Shown: positions 42,571 to 60,962 of the stretch, piece by piece
Layout: each line of letters opens with the position of its first letter
Position numbering within the stretch: position 1 is the stretch's first letter
NCBI RefSeq assembly: GCF_000016185.1
Contig: NC_011420.2
Coordinates: forward strand, 310,001 to 374,000
Direction of reading: 5' to 3'
Length of the DNA: 64,000 bases
Source: Rhodospirillum centenum SW
GTDB taxonomy: Bacteria > Pseudomonadota > Alphaproteobacteria > Azospirillales > Azospirillaceae
Program-made: the position numbers and the translations under genes
The notes under the pieces: generated by a model
Told to the model about the DNA's origin: nothing
The model's input: only the letters and a program-made list of their open reading frames with translations
Database searches by the model: none

Positions 42571-42679
42571 CCGGCCGGTCCGTCGTTCCGGAGAGGGCTC
42601 AGGAATGAACAACACCCCTGAAAGCCGGACGTTTCATCCGCCGGGACAGGGATGCCCCCTTCAAACGGGCGGACTCCCG

Positions 42680-42880
42680 TCAAGGTGCGGAGAGCAGACC
42701 GGCCAGCAGCGCATCCGCCGGCAGCGCGACCACGGGCACGCCCGAGGCGCGGACGAGCTGCAGCACGGCCGTGTGCATGCCCTGGCAGCGGCCGAGGTCG
42801 AGCATGGTCACCGCCTCGTCCTGCATCGCCTCCAGAAGCGTCTCGGCCTCCTCCACGGCGCAGTGGCCCTCAAGGCGCAC
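42680..42880 (-). CDS. Small STAS-like protein at the end of the chemosensory cluster
   Basis: 66 residues from a GTG start with a GGGG site; ten bases after cheA. The pattern VRLEGHCAVEEAETLLEAM, then VTMLDLGRCQGMHTAVLQLVRASG, fits a compact STAS domain, but the usual phosphorylatable Ser/Thr is replaced by the QGMHT turn. A non-phosphorylated partner of CheA or of the stressosome proteins is possible. Weak similarity only; the start is uncertain because no ATG is in frame nearby. Confidence 0.55.
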   Translation of the reverse strand: MRLEGHCAVEEAETLLEAMQDEAVTMLDLGRCQGMHTAVLQLVRASGVPVVALPADALLAGLLSAP

Positions 42881-42890
42881 GACGGCCCCG

Positions 42891-45524
42891 TCATGAACGA
42901 CATCGCACGATCTCCTTCAGGTTCAGCACCAGCAGCACCCGCCCGTCGCCGAGCAGCGCCGTTCCCAGATAGTCGGGCGTATCCGCCAGCACGCCTTCCA
43001 GCGGACGCACGATCACCTCCATGCTCTCGCCGAAGGCGTCGATGGCGAGGCCGACGGTCTGCGCGTCCACCTGCACGACCAGCACGGCCACCTCCTCGGC
43101 CTGGGGCCGGGGCGGCAGGTCCAGCAGCCGGTCCAGGTGGACCAGGGGAATGATGCCGTTGCGCAGGACGAAGACCTCGCGGTCCTTGATGGAGGCGATG
43201 TCGGAGCGGCGGATGCGGACCGTCTCGTTGATCTGGTCCATGGGGATGCCGAACTGCCGCCCGGACACCCCGACCGTCATCACCCGCGTGACCGCCATGC
43301 TGAGCGGCAGGAAGAGGCTGATGGCCGTGCCCTGACCGACCCGGCTGGAAACGTCGATGCGGCCGCCGGATTTCTCCACCGTGGTCCGCACGGCGTCCAT
43401 CCCGACGCCGCGGCCGGACACGTCGGTGACCTCGGCGGCGGTGGAGAAGCCGGCGGCGAAGATCAGCCGCACCGCCTCGTCGTCGCCCATGCGCGCCGCG
43501 GCGTCGGCATCGATCAGGCCCTTCTCGACCGCCTTGCGCCGCATCAGCGCGGGGTCGATGCCGCGCCCGTCATCCTCGACCCGGATCACGACCTGGTCGT
43601 TGTCCTGCCGCGCGGCCAGAGTCAGCGTGGCCGTCCCGGGCTTGCCCGCGGCCGTGCGGTCGGCCTCGATGCCGTGGTCCAGCGCGTTGCGCACGAGATG
43701 CAGCAGCGGCTCGAACAGGTTCTCGATCACCGTCTTGTCGGCCTGGGTGTCCTCGCCCTCGATCACCAGCTCGACCTGTTTGCCGAGCTTGCGAGAAAGG
43801 TCCCGGACCAGCCGCGGGAAGCGCTGGAAGACCGTGGAGACCGGCAGCATCCGCACCTGCATGATCGCGTTGCGCAGGTCCAGGGCGATGCGGTCGATCA
43901 CCGCGTACTGTTCCTTCACCTCCCGCGCCAGCTCCCGCGAGCCGAACACGTCCTCGGCCCGGCGGGCCAGGAAAGGCAGGCCGTTCTTGGCCACCACCAG
44001 CTCGCCGATCAGGTTCATCATGGCGTCGATGCGGGTCTGATCGACCCGCAGGACGGTGGCGGCCCGATCGTGCCCTTCCTCCCCGGCGGGGCCGGCGCGC
44101 TCCGGACGGCGGGGCTTCTCCGGCCCGGCGGACAGCGGCGCGACCGACGCCCCGGCGGCTGTTCCGGCAGCGGTCAGGGGGGACGACGGTCCGTCAAGGA
44201 GCCGTTCCAGGGCGGCGCGCAGGGGCGCGGGATCGGCGGCGGCCAGGGCCTGCCGGCCGGCGGCGGCGACCGCCCCGGCGGGTTCGAAACGGCCGTCGTG
44301 GCGCAGGGCGCCGGCGGCGACCTTGGCGGCGGACCCGATGCGGCCGGCCCGCTCGGCCAGATCGCAGGGCTGCGCCAGCATGGCCGCCTGTTCGCGCAGG
44401 AGCAGGGCCACGGCGGGGGAGAAGGCCGCCGCCGCAGGCGCCCCCGGAACGGCATCCGTCCCCGCGGCCGGCATGATCGTGGCCGGATCGGGCGTGGTGC
44501 CGGTGGCAAGCGCCGTGACCAGCACCGCCGCCAGGGACGCCACCACCTCCCCGGCCGCACCGGGCACGTCGCACAGCCGGGCCAGCCAGCGGACCGGACC
44601 GGGGTCGCAGCCCCGGGCTTCCAGCGCCTCGGCGGCGGCGAGCGCCGCCTCGCGGACGCCGGTCACGTCGCCCAGGCGGAGCAGCGCCCCGGCCTCCCTG
44701 GCGAGATCGCGGACCAGCGGGTCGTCGGGCGGCGGCGGGGCGAAGCGCAGCAGGTCCGCGGCCTCGACCTCCGTCACCTCCGCCTGGTCGGCGACGTAGC
44801 GCAGCAGGTGCAGCAGTTCGGACCGCGGCGCGCCGGAGATCACCCGGAAGCCGATGCCGCAGGAGAAGGGATCGTAGTCGGCAAGGTCGGGCCAGCTCTC
44901 CGGCTCCTCCAGCCCCACCGACAGGGCCTCGGGCACCTGCCGCACCAGCGCCAGGGGATCGTCCCCCTTGAAGAAGCACTGCGGCTCCGGCCGGTAGCAC
45001 AGGACGGAGAGCGGGACTCCGTGCGACAGGCCATACAGGAACGCCGCCTGCAGGGCCGGCTCCGGCACCGTGGCGAGCCAGCCGGGCGGCGCCACCGCTT
45101 CGGCCGGGGCGGCGGCGGGAGCGGCGGCCGGCGTCGCGGGGCCACCCAGCCAGGAGCGCAGGGCCGCGACAGCCGGCGCGGCCTCGGCGGCGGCGGTGTC
45201 GGGCAGCCGGCCCGTGTCCTCGACCGCGTCCAGCCAGCCCGACACGAGGTCCAGCGCCCCGAGGATCTGGTCCATCATGGCCGGAACCAGGGTCAGCCGG
45301 CGGTCGCGCAGGGTGACCAGCAGATCCTCGGCCGCGTGCAGCGTGGCCGTCAGGGCCGGCAGGTCGAACAGGCCCGACGAGCCTTTCAGCGTGTGGACCG
45401 AGCGGAAGACCCCGTTCAGCAGATCGGCGTCGGCCGTATCGCGTTCCAGGGCGAGCAGCCCGTCGGTCGTCGCCGCGATCTGTTCGCGGCCTTCGACCAG
45501 GAACTGGGCAAGAAGCGGGTTCAT
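42891..45524 (-). CDS. cheA: Chemotaxis histidine kinase CheA
   Basis: 877 residues, longer than enteric CheA. P1 Hpt domain with phospho-His about 44 (VHTLKGSSGLF). A P2-like region about 145-260 contains CFFKGDDPLALVRQVP. A long Ala/Pro-rich linker follows to about 490. P3 dimerisation begins VLRVDQTRIDAMMNLIGELV, then the ATPase domain (LVRNALDHGIE, VEDDGRGIDP, SGRGVGMDAV) and the CheW-like P5 domain. It phosphorylates the CheY encoded upstream and CheB. The start overlaps the cheY stop by four bases. Confidence 0.95.
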   Translation of the reverse strand: MNPLLAQFLVEGREQIAATTDGLLALERDTADADLLNGVFRSVHTLKGSSGLFDLPALTATLHAAEDLLVTLRDRRLTLVPAMMDQILGALDLVSGWLDAVEDTGRLPDTAAAEAAPAVAALRSWLGGPATPAAAPAAAPAEAVAPPGWLATVPEPALQAAFLYGLSHGVPLSVLCYRPEPQCFFKGDDPLALVRQVPEALSVGLEEPESWPDLADYDPFSCGIGFRVISGAPRSELLHLLRYVADQAEVTEVEAADLLRFAPPPPDDPLVRDLAREAGALLRLGDVTGVREAALAAAEALEARGCDPGPVRWLARLCDVPGAAGEVVASLAAVLVTALATGTTPDPATIMPAAGTDAVPGAPAAAAFSPAVALLLREQAAMLAQPCDLAERAGRIGSAAKVAAGALRHDGRFEPAGAVAAAGRQALAAADPAPLRAALERLLDGPSSPLTAAGTAAGASVAPLSAGPEKPRRPERAGPAGEEGHDRAATVLRVDQTRIDAMMNLIGELVVAKNGLPFLARRAEDVFGSRELAREVKEQYAVIDRIALDLRNAIMQVRMLPVSTVFQRFPRLVRDLSRKLGKQVELVIEGEDTQADKTVIENLFEPLLHLVRNALDHGIEADRTAAGKPGTATLTLAARQDNDQVVIRVEDDGRGIDPALMRRKAVEKGLIDADAAARMGDDEAVRLIFAAGFSTAAEVTDVSGRGVGMDAVRTTVEKSGGRIDVSSRVGQGTAISLFLPLSMAVTRVMTVGVSGRQFGIPMDQINETVRIRRSDIASIKDREVFVLRNGIIPLVHLDRLLDLPPRPQAEEVAVLVVQVDAQTVGLAIDAFGESMEVIVRPLEGVLADTPDYLGTALLGDGRVLLVLNLKEIVRCRS

Positions 45525-45934
45525 GGGTTCTCGGCCCCCGTCATGATGCCGGCATAGAGGCGCAGGTCGGCGGTGGAGATCGGCTTGACGAGGTAGAGGT
45601 TCACCCCGGCCGCGCGGGCGGCGGCGAAATCGGCCTCCTGATCCCGCGTGCTGGTCATCATGACCGGCAGGCAGGCCCCCTCCTCCGTCGCGCGCAGCCT
45701 GCGCACGAAGGTCAGCCCGTCCATCTTCGGCATGTTCACGTCCACGATCGCCAGATCGAAGGGGGCGGTCAGCACCTTCTCCAGCGCCTCGATGCCGTTG
45801 AACGCCTCTTCGACACCATAACCCTCCGGCTCCAGCGCCTGGCGGTAGTAGGCGCGCACGATGGCGGCATCGTCGATGACGAGCAGGCGCCGGCCGGCCC
45901 CGGGCCGGAAGGGGGAAGCGGTCTCATCCATCAT
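45521..45934 (-). CDS. CheY-like single-domain response regulator
   Basis: 137 residues: acidic pocket in LLVIDDAAIVRAYYR, phospho-acceptor Asp in LAIVDVNMPKMDG, Thr/Ser in MMTSTRD and Lys in YLVKPIS. There is no output domain. It sits between cheR and cheA with four-base overlaps on both sides, so it is the likely direct target of this CheA. Confidence 0.92.
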   Translation of the reverse strand: MMDETASPFRPGAGRRLLVIDDAAIVRAYYRQALEPEGYGVEEAFNGIEALEKVLTAPFDLAIVDVNMPKMDGLTFVRRLRATEEGACLPVMMTSTRDQEADFAAARAAGVNLYLVKPISTADLRLYAGIMTGAENP

Positions 45935-46842
45935 CGGAAGGGCCTCTGGTAGACGATGGCGTCGTCGAAGCGGCGCACATCGAAGAGGGAGGAGATGCGG
46001 CTCATCGACTCCGAATGGCCCAGGCAGACATAGCCCCCCGGCGTCAGGCAGGAGAACATCGCCTCGGCTGCCTCGCGCCGCGAGACATCGTCGAAGTAGA
46101 TCAGCATGTTGCGGCAGAAGATGACGTCCACGTCGCGGAAGCCCGCCATCTGGTCGCGGTCGGAGACGTTGACGCGGGAGAACTCGATGGAGCCGCGCAG
46201 CGCGTCGAGGATCTGCCAGCGGTCGTCGGGCAGGCGCGTGAAGTAGCGACCCAGCACCGAATGGGACAGGCGCTGCACCGACCGGGCGTCGAAGATGCCG
46301 GCACGGGCCGCCTCCAGCACCCGGGTGTCGATGTCCGACGCCAGGATTTCCACGTCCCAGTGATCGACCTCCGGCCAGTTCTCCAGCAGCCAGAGGGCGA
46401 TGGAATAGGGTTCCTCCCCCGTCGAACAGGGCAGCGACCAGATGCGCAGCCGGTCCCCCCGCCGTTTGCGCGCCAGGATGTCGGGCAGGATGGAGCGGGT
46501 CAGGCAGGCGAACTGGTGCTCCTCCCGCCAGAAATAGGTCTCGTTGACCGTCAGGGCGTTGACGATCAGCTCCAGCTCCCGCCCCGTCGTGTCGAAGCGC
46601 AGCAGCGACAGGTAGGACTGCACGCTGGGGGACTCCGTCTGCGCCACGCGCTCCAGCAGCCGGTGGTCCACGAAGTAGCGCTTGGTTTCGCCATAGGACA
46701 TGCCGGTGCGGCGGTAGATCAGATCGCAGAACTTGCGGAACTCGTCGTCGCTGACCGTGGTCACGGCCGAGCGCGAACCGGGGCGGGTGGCGGTCTTCAG
46801 CATGGCCTTCGGGGCTTTTCCGGGGGGGCCGGGGGCCGGCAT
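45931..46842 (-). CDS. cheR: Chemotaxis protein methyltransferase CheR
   Basis: 303 residues; start at the ATG after GAGGAGGG. N-terminal helical domain (FRKFCDLIYRRTGMSYGETKRYFVDHRL), then the SAM-dependent methyltransferase domain with TYFWREEHQF, the glycine-poor SAM motif IWSLPCSTGEEPYSIAL and FCRNMLIYFD. It methylates glutamates of chemoreceptors. An alternative start at 46803 has a weaker ribosome site. Confidence 0.94.
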   Translation of the reverse strand: MPAPGPPGKAPKAMLKTATRPGSRSAVTTVSDDEFRKFCDLIYRRTGMSYGETKRYFVDHRLLERVAQTESPSVQSYLSLLRFDTTGRELELIVNALTVNETYFWREEHQFACLTRSILPDILARKRRGDRLRIWSLPCSTGEEPYSIALWLLENWPEVDHWDVEILASDIDTRVLEAARAGIFDARSVQRLSHSVLGRYFTRLPDDRWQILDALRGSIEFSRVNVSDRDQMAGFRDVDVIFCRNMLIYFDDVSRREAAEAMFSCLTPGGYVCLGHSESMSRISSLFDVRRFDDAIVYQRPFR

Positions 46843-46855
46843 GCGCGCGCCCTCC

Positions 46856-47470
46856 TCACTCGGTCGGCAGCAGGGCCAGGGCGGCATCCACCGTGAAGCG
46901 CACATAGGGCTTGCCGGGATGCCGGGCCGCGAAGTCGTGCAGCACCGCCGCCGTGGCCGCCGTGCCGATCTCCGACAGCACGTCGATGAAGGCACAGGCG
47001 ACGTTGATCTCCTCCTCCCCCGGCAGCAGGGCCTCCAGGGTCGCCGCCGCGGTGCGGCCGAGCGGACCGCGGGCGATCTCCGCCGCCATGATGCGGACCT
47101 GGGGATCATGGTCGCGGATCAGCGCCTCGAAGAAGGGCAGTGCCTCGTCCCCCGCATCGCGCAGCGCCTCGGCCGCGGCGAAGCGGCGGGTGGCGTCCTC
47201 CGAGCGCAGCAGCGGCGCCAGCGCCGCCGCCGCATCCTCCCCGCCGATCTCGACGAGGGCGAGGATCATGCCTTCAGCCACGCTGGGATCTTCCTCGACT
47301 GCCAGTGCGGCGGCGATCAGCGCGACAGCGTCGGCACAGGCATGGGCGGCGTGGGCCGCGGCCCGACGCCGGGCCGGGTCGCCCCCGGCCAGCGCCGCGA
47401 TGACCGACGCCCGGTCGGGAAAGGCGGGTGCTGCGGCACCGGCCGGGGTGTTGCCTTTGACGAGAGGCAT
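46856..47470 (-). CDS. HEAT-repeat protein in the chemosensory cluster
   Basis: 204 residues composed of alpha-helical HEAT-like repeats (for example DPSVAEGMILALVEIGGEDAA, RRFAAAEALRDAGDEAL, DPQVRIMAAEIARGPLG). Such proteins act as scaffolds; in some bacteria HEAT proteins sit in che operons, but no fixed function is established. Located one base after cheB and 13 bases before cheR, so co-expression with the adaptation enzymes is nearly certain. Confidence 0.85.
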   Translation of the reverse strand: MPLVKGNTPAGAAAPAFPDRASVIAALAGGDPARRRAAAHAAHACADAVALIAAALAVEEDPSVAEGMILALVEIGGEDAAAALAPLLRSEDATRRFAAAEALRDAGDEALPFFEALIRDHDPQVRIMAAEIARGPLGRTAAATLEALLPGEEEINVACAFIDVLSEIGTAATAAVLHDFAARHPGKPYVRFTVDAALALLPTE

Positions 47471-47471
47471 G

Positions 47472-48527
47472 TCAGCGTACCCATCTTTCGAGTTGATCGG
47501 CGACGCTCTGGACGGGAAGGACCATGTCCGCGCCGCCGCGCCGGATCAGGTCCTGCGGCATGCCCCAGACCACGGCGGTCTCTTCCGCCTCCGCGATGGT
47601 GCGGCCGCCCTTCTGGCGCAGGGCCGCCATCGCCTCCGCCCCGTCGTTGCCCATGCCGGTCATCAGCACCCCGATCAGGCGCGACGGCTCCATGTGCTCC
47701 ATGGCGCTGAAGACCATGCGGTCCACGCTGGGATGCCAGAGGTGGCGGGAGGAGGCCGGCGTGGGCAGCGCGATCAGCCCGGTGGGACGGGTCGCAATGA
47801 GCATGTCGGCATCACCCTTGGCGATGTAGGCACAGCCGGGCTGCAACGGCGTCGGTCCCGTCACCTCCACCACCCGGACGCGGCTGGCCGCATCCAGGCG
47901 GCGGGCCAGAACGCCCGTGAAGTTCGCCGGCATGTGCTGGCAGACCAGGACCGGCCAGCGGAAATCCTCCCGCAGCGGGGGCAGGACACAGTCCAGCGCC
48001 CCCGGCCCGCCGGTGGAGACGCCGATCAGGACCAGCCCGGCCACGGTCCCGCCCGCGGGTGCCGGCATCCGCTTCGGGGCCGGGGCCGCCTCCTCGGCGG
48101 CGCGGCCGCGCCGGGCCATGAGCCGGGTGCGCATCCGCACCTTCGCCGCCGCCCGGACCTTGGCGACCAGGTCCGCCTCGATCCGGTCGATGCTGAGCGA
48201 GACGGTGCCGTCGGGCTTCGGGATGAAGTCCACGGCCCCCAGCTCCAGCGCCTCCAGCGTCGCCATGGCGCCCTTGGTGGTGAGGGAGGAGACCATCACC
48301 ACCGGCCGCGGGCTTTCCGTCATGATGTGGCTGAGGCAGGTCAGCCCGTCCATCTCCGGCATGTTGATGTCGAGCGTCACCACGTCGGGCTGCTGGTCGC
48401 GCACGGCGGCCAGGGCCTCGGCCCCGTTGCGGGCGAAGCTGACCTGGAAGTCGGGCAGTTCCTGGAAGATCCGGCCCAGATGGCGTCGCATCAGGGCCGA
48501 ATCATCGACGACGAGGAGCTTGATCAT
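47472..48527 (-). CDS. cheB: Chemotaxis protein-glutamate methylesterase CheB
   Basis: 351 residues. N-terminal receiver with Asp in [13 protein letters not shown], then the methylesterase domain with the catalytic triad Ser in GVSTGGPGAL, His in CQHMPANF and Asp in MTGMGNDGAEAM. It removes methyl groups from receptors, or deamidates Gln, when phosphorylated by CheA. Lies between the triple CheW and the HEAT protein genes. Confidence 0.95.
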   Translation of the reverse strand: MIKLLVVDDSALMRRHLGRIFQELPDFQVSFARNGAEALAAVRDQQPDVVTLDINMPEMDGLTCLSHIMTESPRPVVMVSSLTTKGAMATLEALELGAVDFIPKPDGTVSLSIDRIEADLVAKVRAAAKVRMRTRLMARRGRAAEEAAPAPKRMPAPAGGTVAGLVLIGVSTGGPGALDCVLPPLREDFRWPVLVCQHMPANFTGVLARRLDAASRVRVVEVTGPTPLQPGCAYIAKGDADMLIATRPTGLIALPTPASSRHLWHPSVDRMVFSAMEHMEPSRLIGVLMTGMGNDGAEAMAALRQKGGRTIAEAEETAVVWGMPQDLIRRGGADMVLPVQSVADQLERWVR

Positions 48528-48552
48528 GGCGGCTTCCGGTGCAGGCGGTCCG

Positions 48553-50088
48553 TCAGTGGACCGCTTCGACGACGGCCGTCATCTCGGCGGCGTCGAGCAG
48601 GTTCCCGACATCCAGCAGCAGGATCATCCGCTTGCTGGATTCCAGGTTGGCCACCCGGCCGATCAGGCGGGCCTGCTCGTCCGAGAGAGACGGGGTGGGC
48701 CGGATCGTGCCGCGGGCGATCTTCAGCACCTCCAGCACGCTGTCCACGATGAAGCCGGTGCGCACGCCGTTGATGGTGAACACCATGATCCGCTGGCGGT
48801 CGTTGCGCTCCAGCTCCGGCAGGTCGAAGCGGCGGCGCTGGTCGATCACCGGCAGCACCGAGCCGCGCAGATTGACCACGCCTTCGATGAAGGCGGCGGT
48901 CTTGGGCACCCGCGTCAGCACCTCCGGCACCCGGACGATCTCGTTCACGCTCTCGATCGGGGCGCCGTACTCCTCGTTGCCCAGACGGAAGACGACGAAC
49001 TGCTCCTCCTCGTCCGCCACCGCGGCCGCACGGCCGCCCTCCGTGGCCTCGGCCATGCTCTCCTCCCTCCCGCTGGCGACAGCGACCGCGGAGCGGACCG
49101 CGTCGTGCCGGAACAACTGATCGGCCGACAGGATCGAAACCAGACGCCGGCCCCCGTTCAGACGGCAGATCGACCGGATCTCCCCCTGCCCGTCGCCCAG
49201 CATGCCCGGCAGCGGATCGACCGTGTCCTTGCGCACCCGCAGGACCTCGCGCACCGTGTCCATGACGATGCCGACCGAATTGGCCTCGTCCAGCGGGACG
49301 ACGACGATCTTGCTGCGTTCGTCGATCTCCCGGTCGGGCAGGTTGAACATGGCGCGCAGGCTGACCAGCGGCAGCAGCCGGTTGCGCAGGGTCATGACGC
49401 CCAGGACATGCGCGTCGGTGCAGGGGATCCGGCTGACATTGTCCGGCACCTGCACGATCTCCTGCACGCTCTCGATGCCCAGCGCGTACTCCTGCCCGGC
49501 GACCTCGAAGCTGACCAGTTGCAGCTCGTCCGAGAGGCGCTCCTCCTCCGTCCCGCGGCTGCCGGCCGAGCCGGCGGCCACGCGGGAGGTTCCCTTGCGC
49601 CGGCCCTTCGGCTTCTCCGTGGACAGCAGGCGCGCCGGGTCCAGGATCATGATCATGGCGTGCCCTTCGACACCCTTGATCATGCCGCGCAGCAGGTCGG
49701 TGTCGATGGTGGCGCCGATCGCCTCGGCCGGTTCGATCCGGTCGGCATCGACGGTGACCACTGCCGCCATCCGGTCCACGACGAAGCCCACCGGCGCCCC
49801 CTGGTCGATGACGACGACACGGGTGGAATCGTCGTGCGGCACGTCGGGGAAGTGGAAGATGCGGCGCAGGCTGGTGACCGACAGCACCGTGCCACGGAGA
49901 TTGGCGAGACCCTGCAGACTGGGCGGGCTCTTCGGGACGCCGACGATCTCCGGCATCCGGATGATCTCCTGCACCTCGGCCAGCGGTACGGCGAACATCT
50001 CGTTCTGCACGTAGAAGGTCACGTACTGCCGCGCATCGCCGGTTCCGGCGTCGCCACCGGGATCGGCGGCGGCGTTGGTCATGTTCAT
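48553..50088 (-). CDS. Triple-domain CheW coupling protein
   Basis: 511 residues consisting of three consecutive CheW domains (about 20-155, 188-327, 362-500) joined by short charged linkers. Each has the two-barrel CheW pattern (ALGIESVQEIVQVP, APIESVNEIVRVPEV, and NLRG... VLPVID). A normal CheW has one domain. One molecule could bridge several receptors and CheA units within an array. No kinase or receiver domain is present. It lies between the double-tip receptor and cheB. Confidence 0.93.
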   Translation of the reverse strand: MNMTNAAADPGGDAGTGDARQYVTFYVQNEMFAVPLAEVQEIIRMPEIVGVPKSPPSLQGLANLRGTVLSVTSLRRIFHFPDVPHDDSTRVVVIDQGAPVGFVVDRMAAVVTVDADRIEPAEAIGATIDTDLLRGMIKGVEGHAMIMILDPARLLSTEKPKGRRKGTSRVAAGSAGSRGTEEERLSDELQLVSFEVAGQEYALGIESVQEIVQVPDNVSRIPCTDAHVLGVMTLRNRLLPLVSLRAMFNLPDREIDERSKIVVVPLDEANSVGIVMDTVREVLRVRKDTVDPLPGMLGDGQGEIRSICRLNGGRRLVSILSADQLFRHDAVRSAVAVASGREESMAEATEGGRAAAVADEEEQFVVFRLGNEEYGAPIESVNEIVRVPEVLTRVPKTAAFIEGVVNLRGSVLPVIDQRRRFDLPELERNDRQRIMVFTINGVRTGFIVDSVLEVLKIARGTIRPTPSLSDEQARLIGRVANLESSKRMILLLDVGNLLDAAEMTAVVEAVH

Positions 50089-50116
50089 GGCTCAGCCCTC
50101 ACGTTGTCGGGCCCGG

Positions 50117-52045: not shown

Positions 52046-52133
52046 CTGGGGGGCTCCGTCTGAAATCCGCCTCCTCGGGGGGCGGCCGGCACGGTGGCAC
52101 CGATGGACGGGCTCCGGAATCGGGGTGAACCCT

Positions 52134-52148
52134 ATTAGGGAAAACCCT
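52134..52148 (-). promoter_or_regulatory. Shared 15-base motif before the double-tip receptor gene (copy A)
   Basis: Minus strand AGGGTTTTCCCTAAT, containing the TAA stop of the preceding gene; a further half-site AGGG-N4-CCCC follows. It lies 89 bases before the receptor start, in one of the two widest gaps of the cluster. Copy B is at 60320. Function unknown; possible operator or RNA element. Confidence 0.45.
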
Positions 52149-53610: not shown

Positions 53611-53612
53611 GG

Positions 53613-54719
53613 TCAGGGGCCTCCCCCTTCCTGCCAGCCCTGCTGCCCGCGATCACCGTCCCGGACGGCACGGCGGTTGGCGAGAACGAGCACGCTCTGG
53701 TCGTCGATCCGACCGATGCCGTCGCGCAGCAGGATCGCCGCCGCCAGGACAGAATCGACATGCCGCAGCGGGCTGCCGGCGAACAGCGGCACCAGACCAC
53801 TGCATCCGTCGCTGTGCAGGACGACATGATCCCCCGGTCCCCAGGGCAGGCTGGCCGTCGGCGGCGGCGCCGCATTGTAGCCGATCACCCCCCAGCGGCT
53901 GTTCAGGGCAGCGCTGCCGGTGCGGGTGACCAGGGCGGCCGTGATGTTCCCCACCGCGGCATAGTCCACCGCATCGGGACGCAGGCGCACGACGGTGGCC
54001 GCCGCCCCGCGGGTGCCGCGCAGGGCCGCGTGCAGGTCGGCCAGGGCCGCCTGCGGATCGCAGCCGGGGGGCAGGGCGGCGAAGACAGTCTCGGCGCGGC
54101 GCGCCACCACGCCCGCCGGCTCGCCATGGCCCAGCCCGTCCACCAGCAGCGCCAGCCCGTCCTGACGGACCATCCAGCCGTCGCCGCAGTCGTCGCAGCC
54201 GGCCATCGGCAGCATCACGGCACCGTGCTCGAAGGCCCCGGGATCGGCGGGCGGCGGGGGCTGTCCGCGGTCGCGCACCCGCGCCAGGACCACGGTCCCC
54301 TCCCCCGGACGCGACTGGATGGCGAAACGGTCGGCCAGCCGGCGCACGGCGCCGAGGCCGTAGCCCAGGCTGCGCCCCGGCCCGGGTTCCGGGTCGTGAC
54401 GGTCGGCCAGGGCGCCGTCCAGGTCGGCGATGCCGGGGCCGCGGTCCAGCGACAGGCATTCGATGCCACACCCGCCAGCCGCCGCGCCGGGTCCCGATCC
54501 CGGCGACACCGGCGGAACCGTGCAGCGGAGCAGCAGGGTCCCGCCGCCGGCGTGGCGGATCAGGTTGCTGCCCAGCTCGGCGACGATCAGGTGCAGCCGC
54601 CCCGCCGCCTCTGCGTCCAGATCGCCGCGTGCCAGCAGCGCGGCGCAGACGCCCCGGGCCGCAGCGAGGTCGGCCGGTCCGTCGATGCGCACGCGGTGAT
54701 GGCAGTGCAGGGGCAGCAT
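53613..54719 (-). CDS. RsbT-like ATPase fused to a PP2C (RsbX-like) phosphatase
   Basis: 368 residues. The N-terminal half is a GHKL ATPase of the RsbT/RsbW type (VAELGSNLIRHAGG, DRGPGIADLDG, GYGLGAVRRLADRF). The C-terminal half is a SpoIIE/PP2C phosphatase (LALLVDGLGHGEPAG, VGNITAAL, LHSDGCSG). In Bacillus RsbX dephosphorylates RsbS and RsbR to reset the stressosome, which is the expected role here, with the ATPase half as a second RsbT-like partner. Its ATG overlaps the rsbT stop (ATGA). Confidence 0.9.
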   Translation of the reverse strand: MLPLHCHHRVRIDGPADLAAARGVCAALLARGDLDAEAAGRLHLIVAELGSNLIRHAGGGTLLLRCTVPPVSPGSGPGAAAGGCGIECLSLDRGPGIADLDGALADRHDPEPGPGRSLGYGLGAVRRLADRFAIQSRPGEGTVVLARVRDRGQPPPPADPGAFEHGAVMLPMAGCDDCGDGWMVRQDGLALLVDGLGHGEPAGVVARRAETVFAALPPGCDPQAALADLHAALRGTRGAAATVVRLRPDAVDYAAVGNITAALVTRTGSAALNSRWGVIGYNAAPPPTASLPWGPGDHVVLHSDGCSGLVPLFAGSPLRHVDSVLAAAILLRDGIGRIDDQSVLVLANRRAVRDGDRGQQGWQEGGGP

Positions 54720-55138
54720 CAGCGTTTCCAGAGGGTGAAGACCACCCGGGTGCCGGCCTCGGGGGTGGAGGTGATGGCGAATTCGTGGGCCAGCCGCTTG
54801 GTGCCGGGCAGCCCCAGCCCCATGCCGGCCCCGGTGCTGTAGCCGTCGCGCATGGCCCGTTCCAGGTCGGGGATCCCCGGTCCCCGGTCGTCGAACACCA
54901 GCCGCAGCCCGCTGCGGCCCAGACGCTCCAGCGGTTCCAGGGTGACGCTGCCGCCCTGGGCGTAGAGGACGATGTTGCGCGCCAGTTCGCTGGCCGCCGT
55001 CATCAGCTTGGTCTGGTCCACCAGCCCGAAGCCGACGCGGCGTCCCGCCTCCTCCACGGCGCGGCGGACGGCCGGCAGCGAGTCCTCACCGGCGATGGGC
55101 AGGATCAGGGGGGGCGGCGTGGCGCGGCCCTGGGTCAC
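54719..55138 (-). CDS. rsbT: Stressosome switch kinase RsbT
   Basis: 139 residues, the usual RsbT size. GHKL boxes: SELARNIVLYAQGG, DDRGPGIPDLE and GMGLGLPGTKRLAHEF. RsbT phosphorylates RsbS and RsbR and is then released to act on a downstream target. In Bacillus that target is RsbU, which is not present here. The GTG start overlaps the rsbS stop (GTGA). The longer open frame to 55654 is a shadow of rsbS and rsbR. Confidence 0.93.
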   Translation of the reverse strand: MTQGRATPPPLILPIAGEDSLPAVRRAVEEAGRRVGFGLVDQTKLMTAASELARNIVLYAQGGSVTLEPLERLGRSGLRLVFDDRGPGIPDLERAMRDGYSTGAGMGLGLPGTKRLAHEFAITSTPEAGTRVVFTLWKR

Positions 55139-55500
55139 GATCGGCCGCCCGCTCGCTCCCGCAGACGGGCGAGGCCGTGCTCCAGCGACAGGGCGGTGGC
55201 GATCCCGCCCAGGGTCATGCCCAGCTCGATCAGGGTGATCGCCACCTCCGGCCGCATGCCGGTGAGCATCGGCTCCACCCCCATGAGACGCGCGGTCCGC
55301 GCCATCTGCTCCAGCACCCGCCCCATGAAGCTGTCGATCAGGCGCGCGTTGCTGACGTCGATCACGACGGCGCGGGCGCGATGTTCCACCAGCCGGCCGG
55401 CCACCTCCTCGACCAGGCGCTCGGCCATGCGGTCGTCGGTCACGCCGGGCAGGGTGACGACGAGAACGCCCTCGACGGTGAGGATATGCACGCCCTCCAT
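55135..55500 (-). CDS. rsbS: Stressosome scaffold protein RsbS
   Basis: 121 residues, a single STAS domain. The segment LIDSFMGRVLEQM aligns with the Bacillus RsbS phosphorylation site (Ser57 here, Ser59 there), and the GMRPEVAITLIELGM block is strongly conserved. RsbS captures RsbT in the resting stressosome. Three bases after rsbR. Confidence 0.94.
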   Translation of the reverse strand: MEGVHILTVEGVLVVTLPGVTDDRMAERLVEEVAGRLVEHRARAVVIDVSNARLIDSFMGRVLEQMARTARLMGVEPMLTGMRPEVAITLIELGMTLGGIATALSLEHGLARLRERAGGRS

Positions 55501-55503
55501 GGA

Positions 55504-56331
55504 TCAGGCTCCTGGAACGACCGTCAGGCGCATCCTGGTGAAACAGTGACGCAACCCTTCCGCCAGGGAGAAGCGCGTCTCGATGTTGGAAAGGTCGATG
55601 CCGAGCGCCACCATGACCTGGGCGATGGCCGGCCGGATGCCGGTGATGATGCACTCCGCCCCCATCAGGCGCGCCGCGCCGGCCGTCTTCGCCAGATGCT
55701 GCGCCGTCTGGGTGTCCACGGTGGGCACGCCGCTGATGTCCAGAATGGCGTAGCGCGAGCCGGTGCGGGCGATCTCGAACAGCAGCTTCTCCGTGATCGC
55801 CTGCGCCCGCACGGAATCCAGGGTCCCGATGATGGGCAGCGACAGCACGCCTTCCCAGAGCGGCACCACCGGCACGGACAGTTCCAGCAGCTCCTGGCTC
55901 TGACGGCGGATGATCTGCTCCCGCCGGGTGATCAGGGCATCCATGGAATGCAGGCCCATGGCATCCACCAGCAGATGGACGGATGTCATGGCCGGGGTGC
56001 CGTCACCGTAGCGTTCCTGGAGGACATGCTTGAGGCTGAAGACGAAGGTGGCCGTCTGCGAGGGGGAGACGCCCCGTTCCGCGAACTCGATCGACAGCGC
56101 CGACAGCAGCTCCCGCAGATCCTCCGACAGGACGACCGGCTGCCGCCCCAGCGCCTCGACCATGCCGTCGTAGAGTCCGGCGGAGAATTCCCGCAGCAGG
56201 CGCGCCTCGATCCCGTGTGTCTGGATCTCGCGCGACAGGTACGAGGCCCAGCCGTCCAGCACGGACAGGCGGTCGCGGCGGAGGCTCTCCGGCGTCGGAC
56301 CGGCATCGGCAGCGGGGGCGGTGTCTTGCAT
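55504..56331 (-). CDS. rsbR: Stressosome sensor protein RsbR
   Basis: 275 residues. The N-terminal all-helical sensor (about 20-135, GIEARLLREFSAGLYDGMVEAL) resembles the RsbRD-type domain rather than a globin or PAS. The C-terminal STAS domain has YAILDISGVPTVDTQTAQHL (Ser200 at the first Bacillus Thr site; Thr204 and Thr207 nearby) and ITGIRPAIAQVMVALGIDL. It forms the mixed RsbR-RsbS shell. The input signal is unknown. It follows the single-domain regulator gene by 32 bases. Confidence 0.93.
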   Translation of the reverse strand: MQDTAPAADAGPTPESLRRDRLSVLDGWASYLSREIQTHGIEARLLREFSAGLYDGMVEALGRQPVVLSEDLRELLSALSIEFAERGVSPSQTATFVFSLKHVLQERYGDGTPAMTSVHLLVDAMGLHSMDALITRREQIIRRQSQELLELSVPVVPLWEGVLSLPIIGTLDSVRAQAITEKLLFEIARTGSRYAILDISGVPTVDTQTAQHLAKTAGAARLMGAECIITGIRPAIAQVMVALGIDLSNIETRFSLAEGLRHCFTRMRLTVVPGA

Positions 56332-56363
56332 CGGGGCTCTCCTTGTCGGTCGGAGCGGGCGGA

Positions 56364-56741
56364 TCAGGCCGGCAGCAGGTGGCTGACGGCCTGGATCAGC
56401 TCGGCCCGCTGGAAAGGCTTGTAGAGAACCTGATCGGCGCCGAAGTCCGTCCCCTCGCGGCGCAGATCCTCCGCCGTGAAACTGCCGTTCGGCGCCCCGC
56501 CGGTGATGGCAAGGAAGCGCGTGCCCGGCGCCAGCCGGCGGCCCTCGCTGATGACGGCGGTGCCGGGCTGGCCGGGCATCCAGATGTCGGTGACCACCAG
56601 ATCGATCCCCCCCTGCCGCAGCCGGCCCAGCCCTTCTTCGGCATTCGCCGCACCGACGACGGTATGCCCGCAGCCTTCGAGAACGATGCGCAAGGAGAGC
56701 ATGACGGAGGGAACATCTTCAACGACGAGAATCGTGGCCAT
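56364..56741 (-). CDS. Single-domain response regulator paired with the LOV kinase
   Basis: 125 residues: acidic residues in ILVVEDVPSVMLS, phospho-Asp in LVVTDIWMPGQPG, Thr in LAITGGAPNG and Lys in VLYKPFQ. There is no output domain. Its start lies 23 bases inside the end of the LOV histidine kinase gene, so it is probably the cognate acceptor and could pass the signal to the stressosome proteins encoded next. The open frame upstream of 56741 is a shadow. Confidence 0.92.
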   Translation of the reverse strand: MATILVVEDVPSVMLSLRIVLEGCGHTVVGAANAEEGLGRLRQGGIDLVVTDIWMPGQPGTAVISEGRRLAPGTRFLAITGGAPNGSFTAEDLRREGTDFGADQVLYKPFQRAELIQAVSHLLPA

Positions 56742-58227
56742 CTTCGAGTTTTCCTTGCACGGCGGGCAGCAGCACGATGGCGGTCGTGCCGCGGTCGGGC
56801 GTGCTCTCCAGAATGATCTCTCCCCCCATCTCCTTGACCAGACCGAAGGCGACGGACAGGCCGAGCCCGGTCCCCTGCCCCACGGGCTTGGTGGTGAAGA
56901 AGGGCTCGAAGGCGCGCTCCAGCAGCGCGCCGTCCATGCCGCAGCCGGTGTCGGCCACCGCGATGCGGACCTGTCCGCCGGCACCCCTGGGGGCCGGCCC
57001 GACGGAGAGCGTGACGTCGATCGTCCCCTCGCCGCCCATGGCTGCCGCCGCGTTGTTGGCGAGGTTCAGCAGGACCTGAATGAAGGCGGTGCGGTCGGCA
57101 TGGATGTCGGCGGTGCCTCCGCCATCGTCGAAGCGGATCAGGATGCCGGGGCCGACGGCCTTGCGCACCAGCACCAGGGCATCGCGCAGCAGGGCGGCGG
57201 CGTCCACCACCTCCGTCTCGCGGCCGCCGGGGCGGGAGAAGGCCAGCAGGTCCCCGATGATCCGCCGCGCCGACAGCGCACAGTCCAGGATGGTGTGCAG
57301 GCAGGCCGTGTCGGCAGTGCTCCGCTGACGGCGCATCAGCTCTTCGGTCAGCAGCGTGACCGGCTGCAGCAGGTTGTTGATCTCATGCGCCACGCCGCCC
57401 ATCATCCGCCCCAGCGCCTCGACGCGCTGACGCTGGCGGTCGATCTCCTCGCGGCGGGCTTCGTCGGTCACGTCCGACTGCAGCCCGATATAGGCCGACA
57501 GGGTTCCCGTCTCGTCGTGGATGGGCGCCAGGACCAGGTGGTTGAGGAAGGTCGAGCCGTCCTTGCGGTAGTTCAGCAGGCGGACATCGGCGCGGCTTCC
57601 CGTCCGGATCGCCTCGTGCAGGACCCCGACCGCGGCGTCATCCGTGCCCGGACCGTGCAGGAAGCGGCAGTTGCGCCCCATCACCTCGGCCCGGTCATAG
57701 CCGGTCAGGGTCTGGAAGATGCGGTTGACGTAGATCAGCGGCGTGTCCGGCCGTCGGGCGTCTGCCACGGCGATGCTGATGGGACAGGCATCGATGACGG
57801 CCAGCAGCATCTCCCGCTCCCGCATGGCATCGTTCAGCAGCGCCTCGAAGTGGCGCAGGTCTGTGACGTCGTGCAGGGTGCCGAAGACGTGCGACGGCCG
57901 GCCTTCCCCCTGACCGCCGCAACAGATGTCGAAATGGACGAAACCGATCCGGCCGTCGCCATGGGCGATGCGGAACTCGCCGGCCCGGGAGGACTCGCCC
58001 CCCGGCAGAAAGATGTCCAGAAAGGCGGCCCTGTCCTCCGCCACCACGGCATCGGCAAGCACCCGGAGACCGGACTCCTCCAGCCCGCGGACACCGAACC
58101 GGGTGCCGACCCAGCGCAGCTCGCCGGCAAGATCATCCGGCCCCCGCCCCGGATCGGGCAGAAAATCGAAGAAGGCCATGCGCGCACTTCTGAACGCACG
58201 GTCCATCAGGGGGGCGCTAGCCGGCAT
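56719..58227 (-). CDS. LOV-domain (blue-light) histidine kinase with an extra PAS domain
   Basis: 502 residues. PAS-like domain about 36-125. LOV domain about 145-255 with GRNCRFLHG (flavin-adduct Cys187), NYRKDG and the Gln250 of GLQSDVT. The classical motif is NCRFLQG; here Q is His. The kinase core has an H-box VAHEINNLLQ (His281), N-box LNLANNAAAAM, G1 DTGCGMDG and G2 GTGLGLSVAFG. The LOV family binds FMN and forms a cysteinyl adduct in blue light. A GGAG site precedes the ATG, which overlaps the upstream gene by 11 bases. Light sensing is strongly suggested but not shown. Confidence 0.9.
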   Translation of the reverse strand: MPASAPLMDRAFRSARMAFFDFLPDPGRGPDDLAGELRWVGTRFGVRGLEESGLRVLADAVVAEDRAAFLDIFLPGGESSRAGEFRIAHGDGRIGFVHFDICCGGQGEGRPSHVFGTLHDVTDLRHFEALLNDAMREREMLLAVIDACPISIAVADARRPDTPLIYVNRIFQTLTGYDRAEVMGRNCRFLHGPGTDDAAVGVLHEAIRTGSRADVRLLNYRKDGSTFLNHLVLAPIHDETGTLSAYIGLQSDVTDEARREEIDRQRQRVEALGRMMGGVAHEINNLLQPVTLLTEELMRRQRSTADTACLHTILDCALSARRIIGDLLAFSRPGGRETEVVDAAALLRDALVLVRKAVGPGILIRFDDGGGTADIHADRTAFIQVLLNLANNAAAAMGGEGTIDVTLSVGPAPRGAGGQVRIAVADTGCGMDGALLERAFEPFFTTKPVGQGTGLGLSVAFGLVKEMGGEIILESTPDRGTTAIVLLPAVQGKLEDGHDSRR

Positions 58228-58588
58228 CGCCCGTCTCCGACGGCGCCATCAGGGTCTGCCGGTGAACACGGTGCTGCGCCTCGGAGATGTAGAGGGCGGC
58301 GAGACCCTCGACATCGATGTCGTCGGGCAGCAGCGCCAGGGCCTGCGCCACCACCTCCATCATCTGCCGGATCAGATCGTGCTCCTGCGCCTGGGAGAAG
58401 AGGATGTCGTCGACCAGGTTCCGCAGCCGTCCCGCATCCTCCTTGCCCTCGCCAGTGACGACGGCGCCGTCCAGACGGTCGAGTGTGGCGATCAGCTCAC
58501 CGCTGGATTTCTCGAAGCGGGCCTGCACCTCGGCGAGCTGGGCGGCCAGCACGCGGCAGACCCGGACGCAGTCCTTGTGCGTCTGCAT
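58217..58588 (-). CDS. Helical protein of unknown function, possibly CheZ-like
   Basis: 123 residues, predicted all helical (LAAQLAEVQARFEKSSGELIATLDRL). The segment DDILFSQAQEHDLIRQMMEVV resembles the CheZ active-site helix (M-A-Q-D-F-Q-D-L-T-G-Q) in spacing of Q and D residues. It follows a cheY-like gene by nine bases, which would suit a phosphatase. Similarity is weak and judged by eye; it may instead be a simple adaptor. Confidence 0.6.
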   Translation of the reverse strand: MQTHKDCVRVCRVLAAQLAEVQARFEKSSGELIATLDRLDGAVVTGEGKEDAGRLRNLVDDILFSQAQEHDLIRQMMEVVAQALALLPDDIDVEGLAALYISEAQHRVHRQTLMAPSETGDAG

Positions 58589-58597
58589 CGAGCGGCC

Positions 58598-58966
58598 TCA
58601 CGCGGGCAGGAGTTGCCGGATCGTGGCGATCAGGTCGTCGGGCTGGGTCGGCTTGGTCAGCCAGCCCGAGGCACCGGCGGAGCGGGCCTCGCTCTGCTTG
58701 GTCGCCACCGATTCCGTGGTCAGCACGACAATGGGCGTGAACCGGGTGGGCGCGTGCTTGCGCGCCTCCTTGATGAAGGTGATGCCGTCCATCTCCGGCA
58801 TGTTGATGTCGGTCAGGATCAGGTTGGGCTTCATGCCCCCCTTCAGCCGCTTCAGCCCGTCCTGCCCGTTGGTCGCGGTTTCGACGGAGTAGCCGTACTT
58901 GGCCAGGATGCGGGAGAGGCTCATCACCATGGTGGGCGAGTCATCGATGACGAAGATCAGCGACAT
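58598..58966 (-). CDS. CheY-like single-domain response regulator
   Basis: 122 residues, a textbook chemotaxis-type receiver: [13 protein letters not shown], phospho-Asp in [13 protein letters not shown], Thr in VVLTTES, Lys in WLTKPTQ. Overlaps the end of the membrane chemoreceptor gene by ten bases. Probably receives phosphate from a CheA, perhaps the one at 42891. Confidence 0.93.
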
Positions 58967-60267
58967 TCGGTAACATCCTTCTGATGGGGCGCGACCTGCA
59001 CAGGCGCCGCGGCCAAGGGGCCGGCGTCGGGGTCGGCCTGTGCCGGAATCATGCCGGCGCCGACGGTGCGGAGCTGGTCGCGCAGGTTGATCATCAGGCC
59101 ATCGACCTGGTTGGCGGTGTCGAGGACCAGATCGGAGAGCATGCCGCTGTTGGCGGCGATCTGGGCGGCCTCGCGGATTTCCCGCGACAGGCCGAAGACG
59201 GATTCACGCATCTGGCCGAGGCTGCCCGACACTTCCGTCGCCAGCGTCTCCTGGTCGTGCAGGGCGGTGGCGATGCGGCCGCTGGCGGTGTCGGTCATGG
59301 CGATCGTATCGACCAGGACGCGCAGGGCCGCGACGGTGGACTGGGTCGTCTCCCGCATCGAGGCGATACGGGCGGAAATGGTGTCGGTGGCGACCGCCGT
59401 CTGGTGCGCGAGCTGCTTGATCTCGGAAGCGACGACGGCGAAGCCGCGCCCCGCGTCGCCGGCACGCACCGCCTCGATCGTGGCGTTCAGGGCCAGCATG
59501 CGGGTCTGGCGGGCGATGTCGTTGATCAGCCCGATGGTTTCGGCGACGTCCTCGGCCAGGGCGGCCATGGTGTCCACCCGCTCGCTGGTGGCTGCCGCCC
59601 GGCTGGTCGCCGTCTTGACGACATCCAGCGTGCTCTCGACCTCCTTGCCGATGACGCCGATGGCGGCGAACAGCCCTTCGCCCACGGTGCTCAGACGCTC
59701 GATGCAGGTCTCGGTGTCGCTGGCCCCGGTCATGGAGCGCCGGAACTGCTCGTTCGCCTGCTGGGCGGCGGTGGACATCTCTTCCGCCATCTCCCGCATC
59801 TGCAGGTTCTCCTTGACCACGGCGGTGACCGAGGTCTCGACCTGCTCCATGATGACGGAGCCGAACAGGCCCATGGCCGTCTGCAGGTCGTTGCTGGTGC
59901 CCCCGGCGGGACCGGGCTCGAACCGTGCCGCGGGCACCGGCCCCCCTGTCGGCCCCAGGACCGGAACCAGGGGCCGGCCGGGGAGGGACAGGTCGGGCAG
60001 GGACGGGGCGGAAGACGAAGGCGGCTGTATCCTGGCCGACGGAGCAGGGACCGCACCGTCCGGACGGCGGGCGCGCAAGGCCGGGACCAGCGCCGCGACA
60101 CAGAGCAGGGCAGAGACGATGCCGAGCGCCCGCACGACGGACGGATGCCCGGCCGCCAGCACCACGGCAAGCGACGCCACGGCAGCAGCGGCGACGAGAA
60201 CAGACAGGACAGGGCCGGCGGAAGCGAAGCGCCGCCCCGCCGTGCCGTGTCGTTCCATAGGCGTCAT
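58957..60267 (-). CDS. Membrane chemoreceptor with atypical signalling tip
   Basis: 436 residues. Two membrane helices near the N-terminus (about 16-40 and 46-64) with almost no periplasmic loop, then a Pro-rich linker and a short MCP signalling domain. The tip reads [31 protein letters not shown], differing from the usual QTNLLALNA...EAARAG at two positions. It has no clear ligand domain, so it may sense membrane state or a partner protein. Start at the ATG after TTTGGAG, 65 bases past the FixJ-like gene. Confidence 0.9.
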
Positions 60268-60319
60268 CAGAAGGCTCCAAAGACCGGGGCAACGGTGCCA
60301 AGGACCGTCCGCGGCGTAA

Positions 60320-60334
60320 ATCAGGGTAAACCCT
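60320..60334 (-). promoter_or_regulatory. Shared 15-base motif before the membrane receptor gene (copy B)
   Basis: Minus strand AGGGTTTACCCTGAT, differing from copy A at two positions, and preceded by CCCTGT to give another half-site. It overlaps the TAG stop of the FixJ-like gene and lies 53 bases before the receptor start. Confidence 0.45.
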
Positions 60335-60962
60335 ACAGGGCTGCGCAGGGGCCGGCCGTGTCCCAGAGGCGGGTCAGATCCACCAGAGAGAGGGCGCCGG
60401 TCTTCTCCATGATGCGGGCGCGGTGCGCCTCGACCGTCTTGATGCTGATGCCCAGCACGTCGCCGATGGCCCGGTTGGTCCGGCCCTCGATCACCTGGCC
60501 CAGCACCTCGACCTCCCGTTCCGACAGCGCGGCGAGCTTCTCCGCGGCGGCACGGCGGCGCGCCGTCTCGGACGCGCGCAGACGCGCGATGGCAAGGCAG
60601 GCCCGGACCTTGCCGACCAGTTCCGCCTTCTCGAACGGCTTGGTGAGGAAATCGGTGGCCCCCGCCTTCATCGCCTCCACCGCCACCTCGACGCTGGCAT
60701 AGCCGGTGATGACGAGGACGGGGTTGCGCTGGCCGCGGGCCCGGAGAGTGAGCAGCAGATCAATGCCGGTCATGTCATGGAGCTGCACATCGGCGATCAC
60801 GCAGTCGCGCTCCCCGACCCCGGCCGCGAGGAACGGCCCACCATCCTCATAGGTCCGGCAGGTGTACCCGTCGGCTTCGAGAAGCGTCCGCAGCGCCTTC
60901 AGGACCGTGGGCTCGTCGTCCACGATGTGGACGACCACACCGGCAGCGCCATCATACGGCAT
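60333..60962 (-). CDS. FixJ-family response regulator
   Basis: 209 residues. Receiver domain ([14 protein letters not shown], phospho-Asp in [29 protein letters not shown]) followed by a LuxR-type helix-turn-helix ([42 protein letters not shown]). First gene of the 19-gene cluster and its only DNA-binding protein, so it is the best candidate for transcriptional output or autoregulation. The cognate kinase is not fixed by position; the LOV kinase is a candidate. Confidence 0.93.

Follow-up and report, generated by a model that had tools for sequence, protein, structure and literature searches.

Introduction

In Rhodospirillum centenum, the Che2 chemosensory system sets the number of lateral flagella, its mutants over-producing or lacking them (Berleman and Bauer 2005, as cited in PMC2890560), and che2 expression has been reported to drop during germination together with that of the lateral-flagellar genes. 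Cluster I of Vibrio cholerae, an F9 system, comprises a soluble receptor with two signalling domains, a concatenated triple CheW and a CheA (PMC7534058), all of which recur in the locus described here, a likeness of genes only. The literature that we found on the Vibrio system makes no link to RsbRST.

Blue light and a stressosome belong to one pathway in Bacillus, where YtvA is a LOV-STAS protein of the stressosome. The same would hold in R. centenum, with the difference that the LOV domain is carried there by a separate histidine kinase and not by an RsbR-type STAS protein. Minimal rsbRSTX modules, as in Vibrio vulnificus and others, combine RsbR, RsbS, RsbT and a phosphatase without RsbUVW-SigB, as the R. 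centenum locus does, and some of their outputs are HisKA/REC relays (PMC9237108). The R. centenum locus departs from these modules in that its RsbR has an RsbRD_N domain in place of a globin, its phosphatase is fused to a HATPase, and its neighbouring putative output is a chemosensory array, which is not among the outputs listed for them (PMC9237108).

The original prediction knew of no described system with exactly this composition. This needs revision: the che half of the locus is the published Che2 cluster with its mutant phenotype, matching it in gene content and locus-tag order (tripartite CheW, RC1_0341, CheA, CheB, CheR, CheY and MCP2, with the small HEAT and STAS proteins; PMC2890560), and the LOV kinase has also been deleted in published work. 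The locus joins two known systems as a new variant. Descriptions of Che2 in the literature consulted, in which the 2005 study enters through PMC2890560, contain neither the RsbRST genes and their tie to Che2 nor the shared palindromic operator-like element, which is new here.

Organization of the locus

In the window, by which we mean the whole stretch of 64,000 nucleotides analysed, all 19 minus-strand ORFs of R. centenum SW between 42680 and 60962 are present in the predicted order, and Pfam agrees with their domain names (Table 1). Upstream of the genes for the membrane receptor and the double-tip receptor lie the two long gaps, of exactly 65 and 89 bases respectively, as predicted; the others, described in the prediction as overlaps or gaps of a few bases, range from -17 to +46 (25-46 upstream of CheB, CheW, RsbR and CheR). 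Conservation of the block does not extend to the 1012-aa HWE kinase encoded below it (39577-42615), consistent with the lower boundary drawn here.

Table 1. Genes and palindromic elements of the R. centenum locus, in order of transcription.
Feature	Position	Strand	Basis and remarks
FixJ/NarL-type response regulator (REC + LuxR/GerE HTH)	60333..60962	-	Pfam; RC1_0355 (PMC2890560)
Palindrome TAGGGTTTACCCTGAT, operator-like, upstream of membrane receptor	60320..60335	-	
Membrane chemoreceptor MCPa, RC1_0354	58957..60267	-	MCPsignal (Pfam); N-terminal hydrophobic segments
CheYa, CheY-like receiver, RC1_0353	58598..58966	-	Pfam
Small helical-hairpin protein, RC1_0352	58217..58588	-	conserved QAQEHD[LI]IRQMM motif
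LOV histidine kinase (PAS-LOV-HisKA-HATPase), RC1_0351	56719..58227	-	Pfam; PMC8092318
Single-domain response regulator	56364..56735	-	Pfam; adjoins RsbR in both gene arrangements
RsbR (RsbRD_N + STAS)	55504..56331	-	Pfam
RsbS	55135..55500	-	Pfam; conserved Ser57 in DSF
RsbT switch kinase	54719..55138	-	Pfam; frame starts with GTG at 55138
RsbT-RsbX fusion (HATPase + SpoIIE-type PP2C)	53613..54719	-	Pfam; DGLGHG motif
PAS-hybrid (PAS-PAS-HisKA-REC)	52135..53610	-	Pfam; lacks the HATPase domain seen in relatives
Operator-like palindrome, two in tandem with 15-base period, upstream of Che2 genes	52119..52149	-	
DosM-like soluble receptor with a double MCP signalling tip (Che2 receptor)	50117..52045	-	Pfam; PMC7534058
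Triple CheW	48553..50088	-	Pfam
CheB	47472..48527	-	Pfam
HEAT-repeat protein, RC1_0341	46856..47470	-	Pfam; PMC2890560
CheR	45931..46809	-	Pfam
CheYb, CheY2-like receiver	45521..45934	-	Pfam
CheA (Hpt, dimerisation, HATPase, CheW; without receiver)	42891..45524	-	Pfam
Mini-STAS protein	42680..42904	-	AlphaFold fold; conserved H[T/S]

On sequence grounds, RsbR, RsbS and RsbT would qualify as stressosome (RsbRST) proteins. RsbS matches a solved RsbS (E 4e-37) and its phosphorylatable Ser57 is invariant in 8 sequences; RsbR matches a solved RsbR, with a conserved Thr in VDT that corresponds to B. subtilis Thr205 and a Ser at the second site, as in V. vulnificus; and RsbT is recognised as HATPase_c (E 1e-11) with conserved N and G boxes. 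Across the whole R. centenum genome the RsbT-RsbX fusion is the sole SpoIIE-type phosphatase, and no RsbU was found, as predicted. The fusion itself was dismissed as a novelty, the same fusion lying 3' of RsbT in most RsbRST loci sampled. The output of RsbT may plausibly be two-component or chemotaxis signalling.

The LOV kinase retains the photoactive Cys in GRNCRFL (NCRFL or NCRVL in five relatives), and its top PDB matches are LOV proteins. Deleting RC1_0351 leaves light-induced cyst germination unaffected in an assay that did not extend to flagella (PMC8092318). Pfam detects no sensor domain in MCPa. The small protein RC1_0352 has no significant database match, and a fold search returned nonspecific helical hairpins only; taken as a CheZ, it was set aside, since no CheZ profile in Pfam matches it at E up to 10 despite a DxxxQ-like motif, and it is possibly a CheZ-like phosphatase.

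The double-tip receptor and the concatenated triple CheW make Che2 F9-like by gene content. Its last gene, predicted to encode a STAS protein, has no Pfam match, yet AlphaFold models the product with confidence (pLDDT 93.8) as a small STAS protein, with SpoIIAA, RsbV and MlaB as PDB neighbours; the start of the gene probably lies near 42904, overlapping cheA.

Conservation and the shared palindrome

The predicted linkage of rsb, LOV and che genes is borne out by their neighbourhoods in relatives, where it occurs in two different arrangements. The full 19-gene order is kept in four genomes (G058, G056, G061 and G067) and, divided between two contigs, in G048 (type A), whereas two more distant genomes, G005 and G350, have the reversed order, che first and then rsb (type B). 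Linkage thus extends to eight genomes including R. centenum, in one of them (G048) by inference across contigs. Because the order recurs in relatives and is reversed in two distant genomes, these gene neighbourhoods argue that the association is not due to chance, although the type A genomes all come from one family and their conserved order partly reflects shared descent. The type B kinases related to the LOV kinase have a core that groups with LOV kinases (support 0.835) and a weak RsbU_N-like, RsbT-docking segment scoring 15.9 and 17.5 bits, below the Pfam cut-off of 25.5 bits; Pfam found no RsbU_N in the proteins of the R. centenum window.

A 16-bp palindrome occurs in both long gaps and at the corresponding positions in every close relative. 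All three of its exact copies in the 4.36 Mb R. centenum genome fall in the locus, as do all seven exact copies of AGGGTNNNCCCTAAY in five close relatives, no exact copy being present in G005 or G350. By chance, 0.32 occurrences would be expected in 64 kb and 0.00065 in 154 bases of gap sequence, figures that speak of rarity and not of function, since the search pattern was derived in part from the sites themselves. The second long gap widens to 576-787 bases in three relatives. Thus, what had been proposed as one 19-gene block holds as a conserved linkage but is unlikely to be a single operon: the palindrome in both gaps, together with the widened second gap, makes it probable that each half is a transcription unit of its own, co-regulated with the other. 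The likely binder of the palindrome is predicted to be the FixJ-like regulator, whose gene is present in type A loci; none was detected in those of type B (G005 and G350). A candidate sigma-54 promoter before the membrane receptor (TTGGCAC...TTGC) was dropped on reading the sequence, its spacing being wrong.

Discussion

We give a probability of about 0.5 to the reading that the locus is one functional module of two adjacent, co-regulated units, stressosome/LOV and Che2, which would set the lateral flagella by stress and light. The former would start at the membrane receptor and take in CheYa, RC1_0352, the LOV kinase with its receiver, and RsbR, RsbS, RsbT and RsbT-RsbX, and the latter would be the F9-type Che2 system. 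From what is known of the family, stress would cause RsbT to phosphorylate RsbR and RsbS and to leave the stressosome, which the PP2C part of the fusion would reset, and the freed RsbT may then act on the histidine kinase adjoining the lone receiver. In type B this kinase has the weakly RsbU_N-like N-terminus, and its R. centenum relative carries a LOV domain, so that blue light and stress would there converge on the same kinase and receiver. By binding the palindrome, the FixJ-like regulator would make the level of Che2 array depend on the first unit's state, and the net effect would be lateral flagella and surface behaviour set by stress and light. A doubtful extension is that stressosome and blue-light kinase together govern how active or how abundant a cytoplasmic double-layer chemosensory array is, with stress and light choosing between swimming and surface swarming; if true, such series wiring would mean two supramolecular sensory assemblies, one feeding the other.

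Alternatively, the two units might have a promoter element in common and do separate jobs, RsbRST and the LOV kinase driving their own kinase-receiver output and Che2 working independently of them. Most RsbRST loci lie with histidine kinases and without che genes (the block is missing from 78 of 80 named loci), HisKA/REC relays are among the published stressosome outputs, and rsb genes are absent from F9-type clusters in many genomes, the majority of clusters sampled; G005 even has two Che2-type clusters, one of them without rsb, which marks rsb as dispensable for such a system. We nevertheless regard separate jobs as rather unlikely, because rsb and che are kept together in two independent gene arrangements and have a private operator-like element in common.

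Coupling at the protein level, in which RsbT or the kinase domain of RsbT-RsbX would phosphorylate the mini-STAS or another Che2 array protein so that stress gates the array directly, draws on the confident STAS-like fold and on the H[T/S] that 12 of 12 sequences keep where SpoIIAA has its phosphoserine. The same mini-STAS, motif included, is also found in F9-type clusters without rsb genes, which weakens it as a dedicated RsbT partner; we regard this mechanism as improbable. Decay of the stressosome arm in R. centenum, leaving Che2 alone functional, is less probable still. It would explain why the kinase served, the PAS-hybrid, has lost the HATPase domain found in relatives and the conserved Lys of its receiver, and why the REC and CheC genes that relatives have between RsbT-RsbX and the hybrid are missing. 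However, the residues for catalysis and phosphorylation are intact in RsbR, RsbS, RsbT, RsbT-RsbX and the LOV kinase, which show about 55-75% identity to close relatives, and F9-type clusters without rsb also come with the REC-CheC-hybrid trio, so that its loss concerns the Che side. The PAS-hybrid as a designed split kinase partnering RsbT was rejected, given that relatives encode a complete kinase and that the R. centenum receiver is also eroded.

The locus brings two questions together in one genetically tractable bacterium: how Gram-negative stressosomes free of RsbU and sigma-B relay their signal, and what feeds F9-type chemosensory arrays, for which we know of no input. Deletions of Che2 and of the LOV kinase are published, and lateral flagella offer an easy read-out. 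If the link is true, the output of stressosomes would extend to controlling a chemosensory array and flagellar number.

Gene content of the locus

Re-derivation of the reading frames from the sequence recovered the 19 minus-strand genes of the original prediction, with their order and both gap lengths. The domain names also hold, with Pfam backing the FixJ-type regulator, MCP, CheY, LOV/PAS kinase, receiver, RsbRD_N-STAS, STAS, HATPase, and HATPase-SpoIIE proteins, followed by PAS-PAS-HisKA-REC, double MCP, triple CheW, CheB, HEAT, CheR, CheY, and CheA. The last gene, called a STAS protein, has no Pfam match, and a small STAS fold is confidently predicted for it from a 12-sequence alignment. 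The genome paper claims a receiver domain for the Che2 CheA (PMC2890560), while Pfam finds none.

On the R. centenum SW chromosome (4,355,548 bases, 70.5% G+C), RC1_0352-RC1_0355 were named a potential operon encoding a small hypothetical protein, CheY, an MCP, and FixJ, RC1_0351 was identified as the LOV kinase, and Che2 was described as including a tripartite CheW along with two small uncharacterized proteins, RC1_0341 among them (PMC2890560). Counting from these neighboring tags, the rsb genes are probably about RC1_0346-RC1_0349. Among RC1_0346-RC1_0351, open-access full texts mention RC1_0351 alone, in two papers, and in the open-access literature on stressosomes together with Azospirillum or R. 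centenum no description of the R. centenum rsb genes was found.

Features of the stressosome-Che2 locus and related stretches
Feature	Sequence	Coordinates	Strand	Remark
19-gene block	window	42680-60962	-	
Gap before membrane receptor	window			65 bases
Helical protein	window	58217-58588	-	keeps QAQEHD[LI]IRQMM
PAS-hybrid	window	52135-53610	-	
Gap before double-tip receptor	window	52046-52134		89 bases
CheA	window	42891-45524	-	
Mini-STAS (last gene)	window	42680-42904	-	
Membrane PAS-HWE kinase, C-terminal receiver	window	39577-42615	-	64 bases past block; not conserved with it
Type B membrane receptor	L072	7221-8450		ends in QFQDVTRQRL-like segment
Type B membrane receptor	L046	11702-13036		ends in QFQDVTRQRL-like segment
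Two palindrome near-copies	L039, Azospirillum soli (G056)	14326-14364		~3 kb beyond block
Second RsbRST-RsbTX locus	L049 (G061)	C3:1056001-1076000		without che

A minimal stressosome set linked to Che2

Judged by sequence, the rsb genes make up a minimal stressosome set: RsbS and RsbR each match stressosome proteins of known structure, and alignment shows the phosphorylation residues kept, Ser in RsbS and Thr in RsbR. Most of the 80 named RsbS relatives, which span many phyla, have RsbT followed by a HATPase-PP2C fusion, and histidine kinases usually lie downstream; the che block is present in only two of them, Azospirillum soli (G056) and ‘Roseomonas genomospecies 6’ ATCC 49961 (G067). The R. 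centenum genome encodes no SpoIIE-type phosphatase other than the RsbT-X fusion; the RsbU route is therefore absent, as originally claimed. In the second rsb locus of G061, a third RsbT-like HATPase forms one protein with a histidine kinase; a single frame there matches Pfam HATPase_c_2, HisKA, and HATPase_c. Another RsbRST-RsbTX locus (L140) lies on a contig labeled Klebsiella pneumoniae MAG, possibly mis-binned.

The che half is the published Che2. Mutants in it show hyper-flagellation or loss of lateral flagella yet retain chemotaxis (PMC2890560), and published data show the operon down-regulated along with lateral-flagellar genes during germination. Che2 shares its double-tip receptor and triple CheW with Vibrio cholerae cluster I (class F9), where this pair builds cytoplasmic double-layer arrays (PMC7534058). 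Several other proteobacterial genomes carry Che2-like clusters in the same gene order with no rsb nearby.

RsbS occurs in 13 of 119 relatives and, across the class, in 13 of 385 genomes, and the predicted rsb-che linkage is found in two arrangements, so the halves stay together. The complete 19-gene order with rsb first (type A) is present in G058, G056, G061, and G067, and spans two contig ends in G048. In G005 and G350 (type B), che genes, STAS, and CheYa precede a receiver, RsbR, RsbS, RsbT, a second HATPase, PP2C, and a kinase, the membrane receptor preceding the receiver in G350 but following the kinase in G005. RsbRST without che inside the flanking sequence examined occurs in G006, G014, G016, G025, G030, G034, and others. 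In a Methylobacterium MAG (L149), CheW, CheA, and MCP fragments near RsbRST, on the opposite strand, look unrelated to Che2.

A shared palindrome and two probable transcription units

Gap alignment revealed a palindrome, (A/T)AGGGTTNNCCCYRAT, common to both receptor gaps: the membrane-receptor gap holds one copy, and the double-tip gap a tandem pair spaced by 15 bases. By chance, 0.32 matches would be expected per 64 kb and 0.00065 in 154 bases. All five close relatives have the palindrome at the equivalent positions, the double-tip gap holding two or three copies in a row; none was found in G005 or G350. The three exact copies in the R. centenum genome are all at the locus, the one single-mismatch site elsewhere lying inside a long open frame; all seven exact AGGGTNNNCCCTAAY sites in the five relatives are likewise at the locus, the reversed-pattern control also giving seven matches in these genomes. 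We read the palindrome as a locus-private, putative operator. The natural candidate to bind it is the FixJ-like regulator, whose gene was seen at type A loci but not at type B loci. In Azospirillum soli, the near-copies follow another FixJ-like gene and immediately precede one for a 4Fe-4S protein.

An GGTGCCAC or TTGGCACC element follows the palindrome by ~17-19 bases in both gaps. The adjacency and order of the predicted single block stand, but the second gap measures 576-787 bases in three relatives, which favors two transcription units over one operon.

Possible outputs of RsbT

Type B kinases show a sub-threshold N-terminal Pfam match to RsbU_N, the published docking domain for RsbT in B. 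subtilis, and their core groups with LOV kinases (support 0.835). Together these suggest that the ancestral RsbT output at the locus was this kinase, paired with a lone receiver; in the R. centenum type, it would then have acquired a LOV sensor. All six type A kinases retain the LOV cysteine, and deletion of the LOV kinase left light-induced germination, the read-out used, unaffected (PMC8092318). The similarity between the helical-protein motif and the type B receptor ends raises the possibility that a phosphatase-like module is separate in R. centenum and fused to the receptor in G350 and G005.

The PAS-hybrid has eroded in R. centenum: its HATPase is lost internally, its receiver lacks the conserved Lys, and the neighboring REC and CheC genes of relatives are missing. 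The HATPase region is intact in four type A relatives, and in all three type A relatives examined the interval from the RsbT-X fusion to the hybrid kinase contains a CheX/CheC-type gene that neighbors a receiver gene. This erosion makes the PAS-hybrid a poor first choice as an RsbT pull-down partner. The REC, CheC-like, and PAS-hybrid trio, whole or in part, also accompanies four rsb-free clusters (G084, G006, G012, and a second copy in G058).

The stressosome-Che2 locus is real and conserved, and we infer a signaling link between the stressosome and Che2. Half of what had been considered an undescribed system was already known as Che2; what is new is that stressosome and Che2 genes are linked in two arrangements and that the two receptor genes share a private operator-like element.
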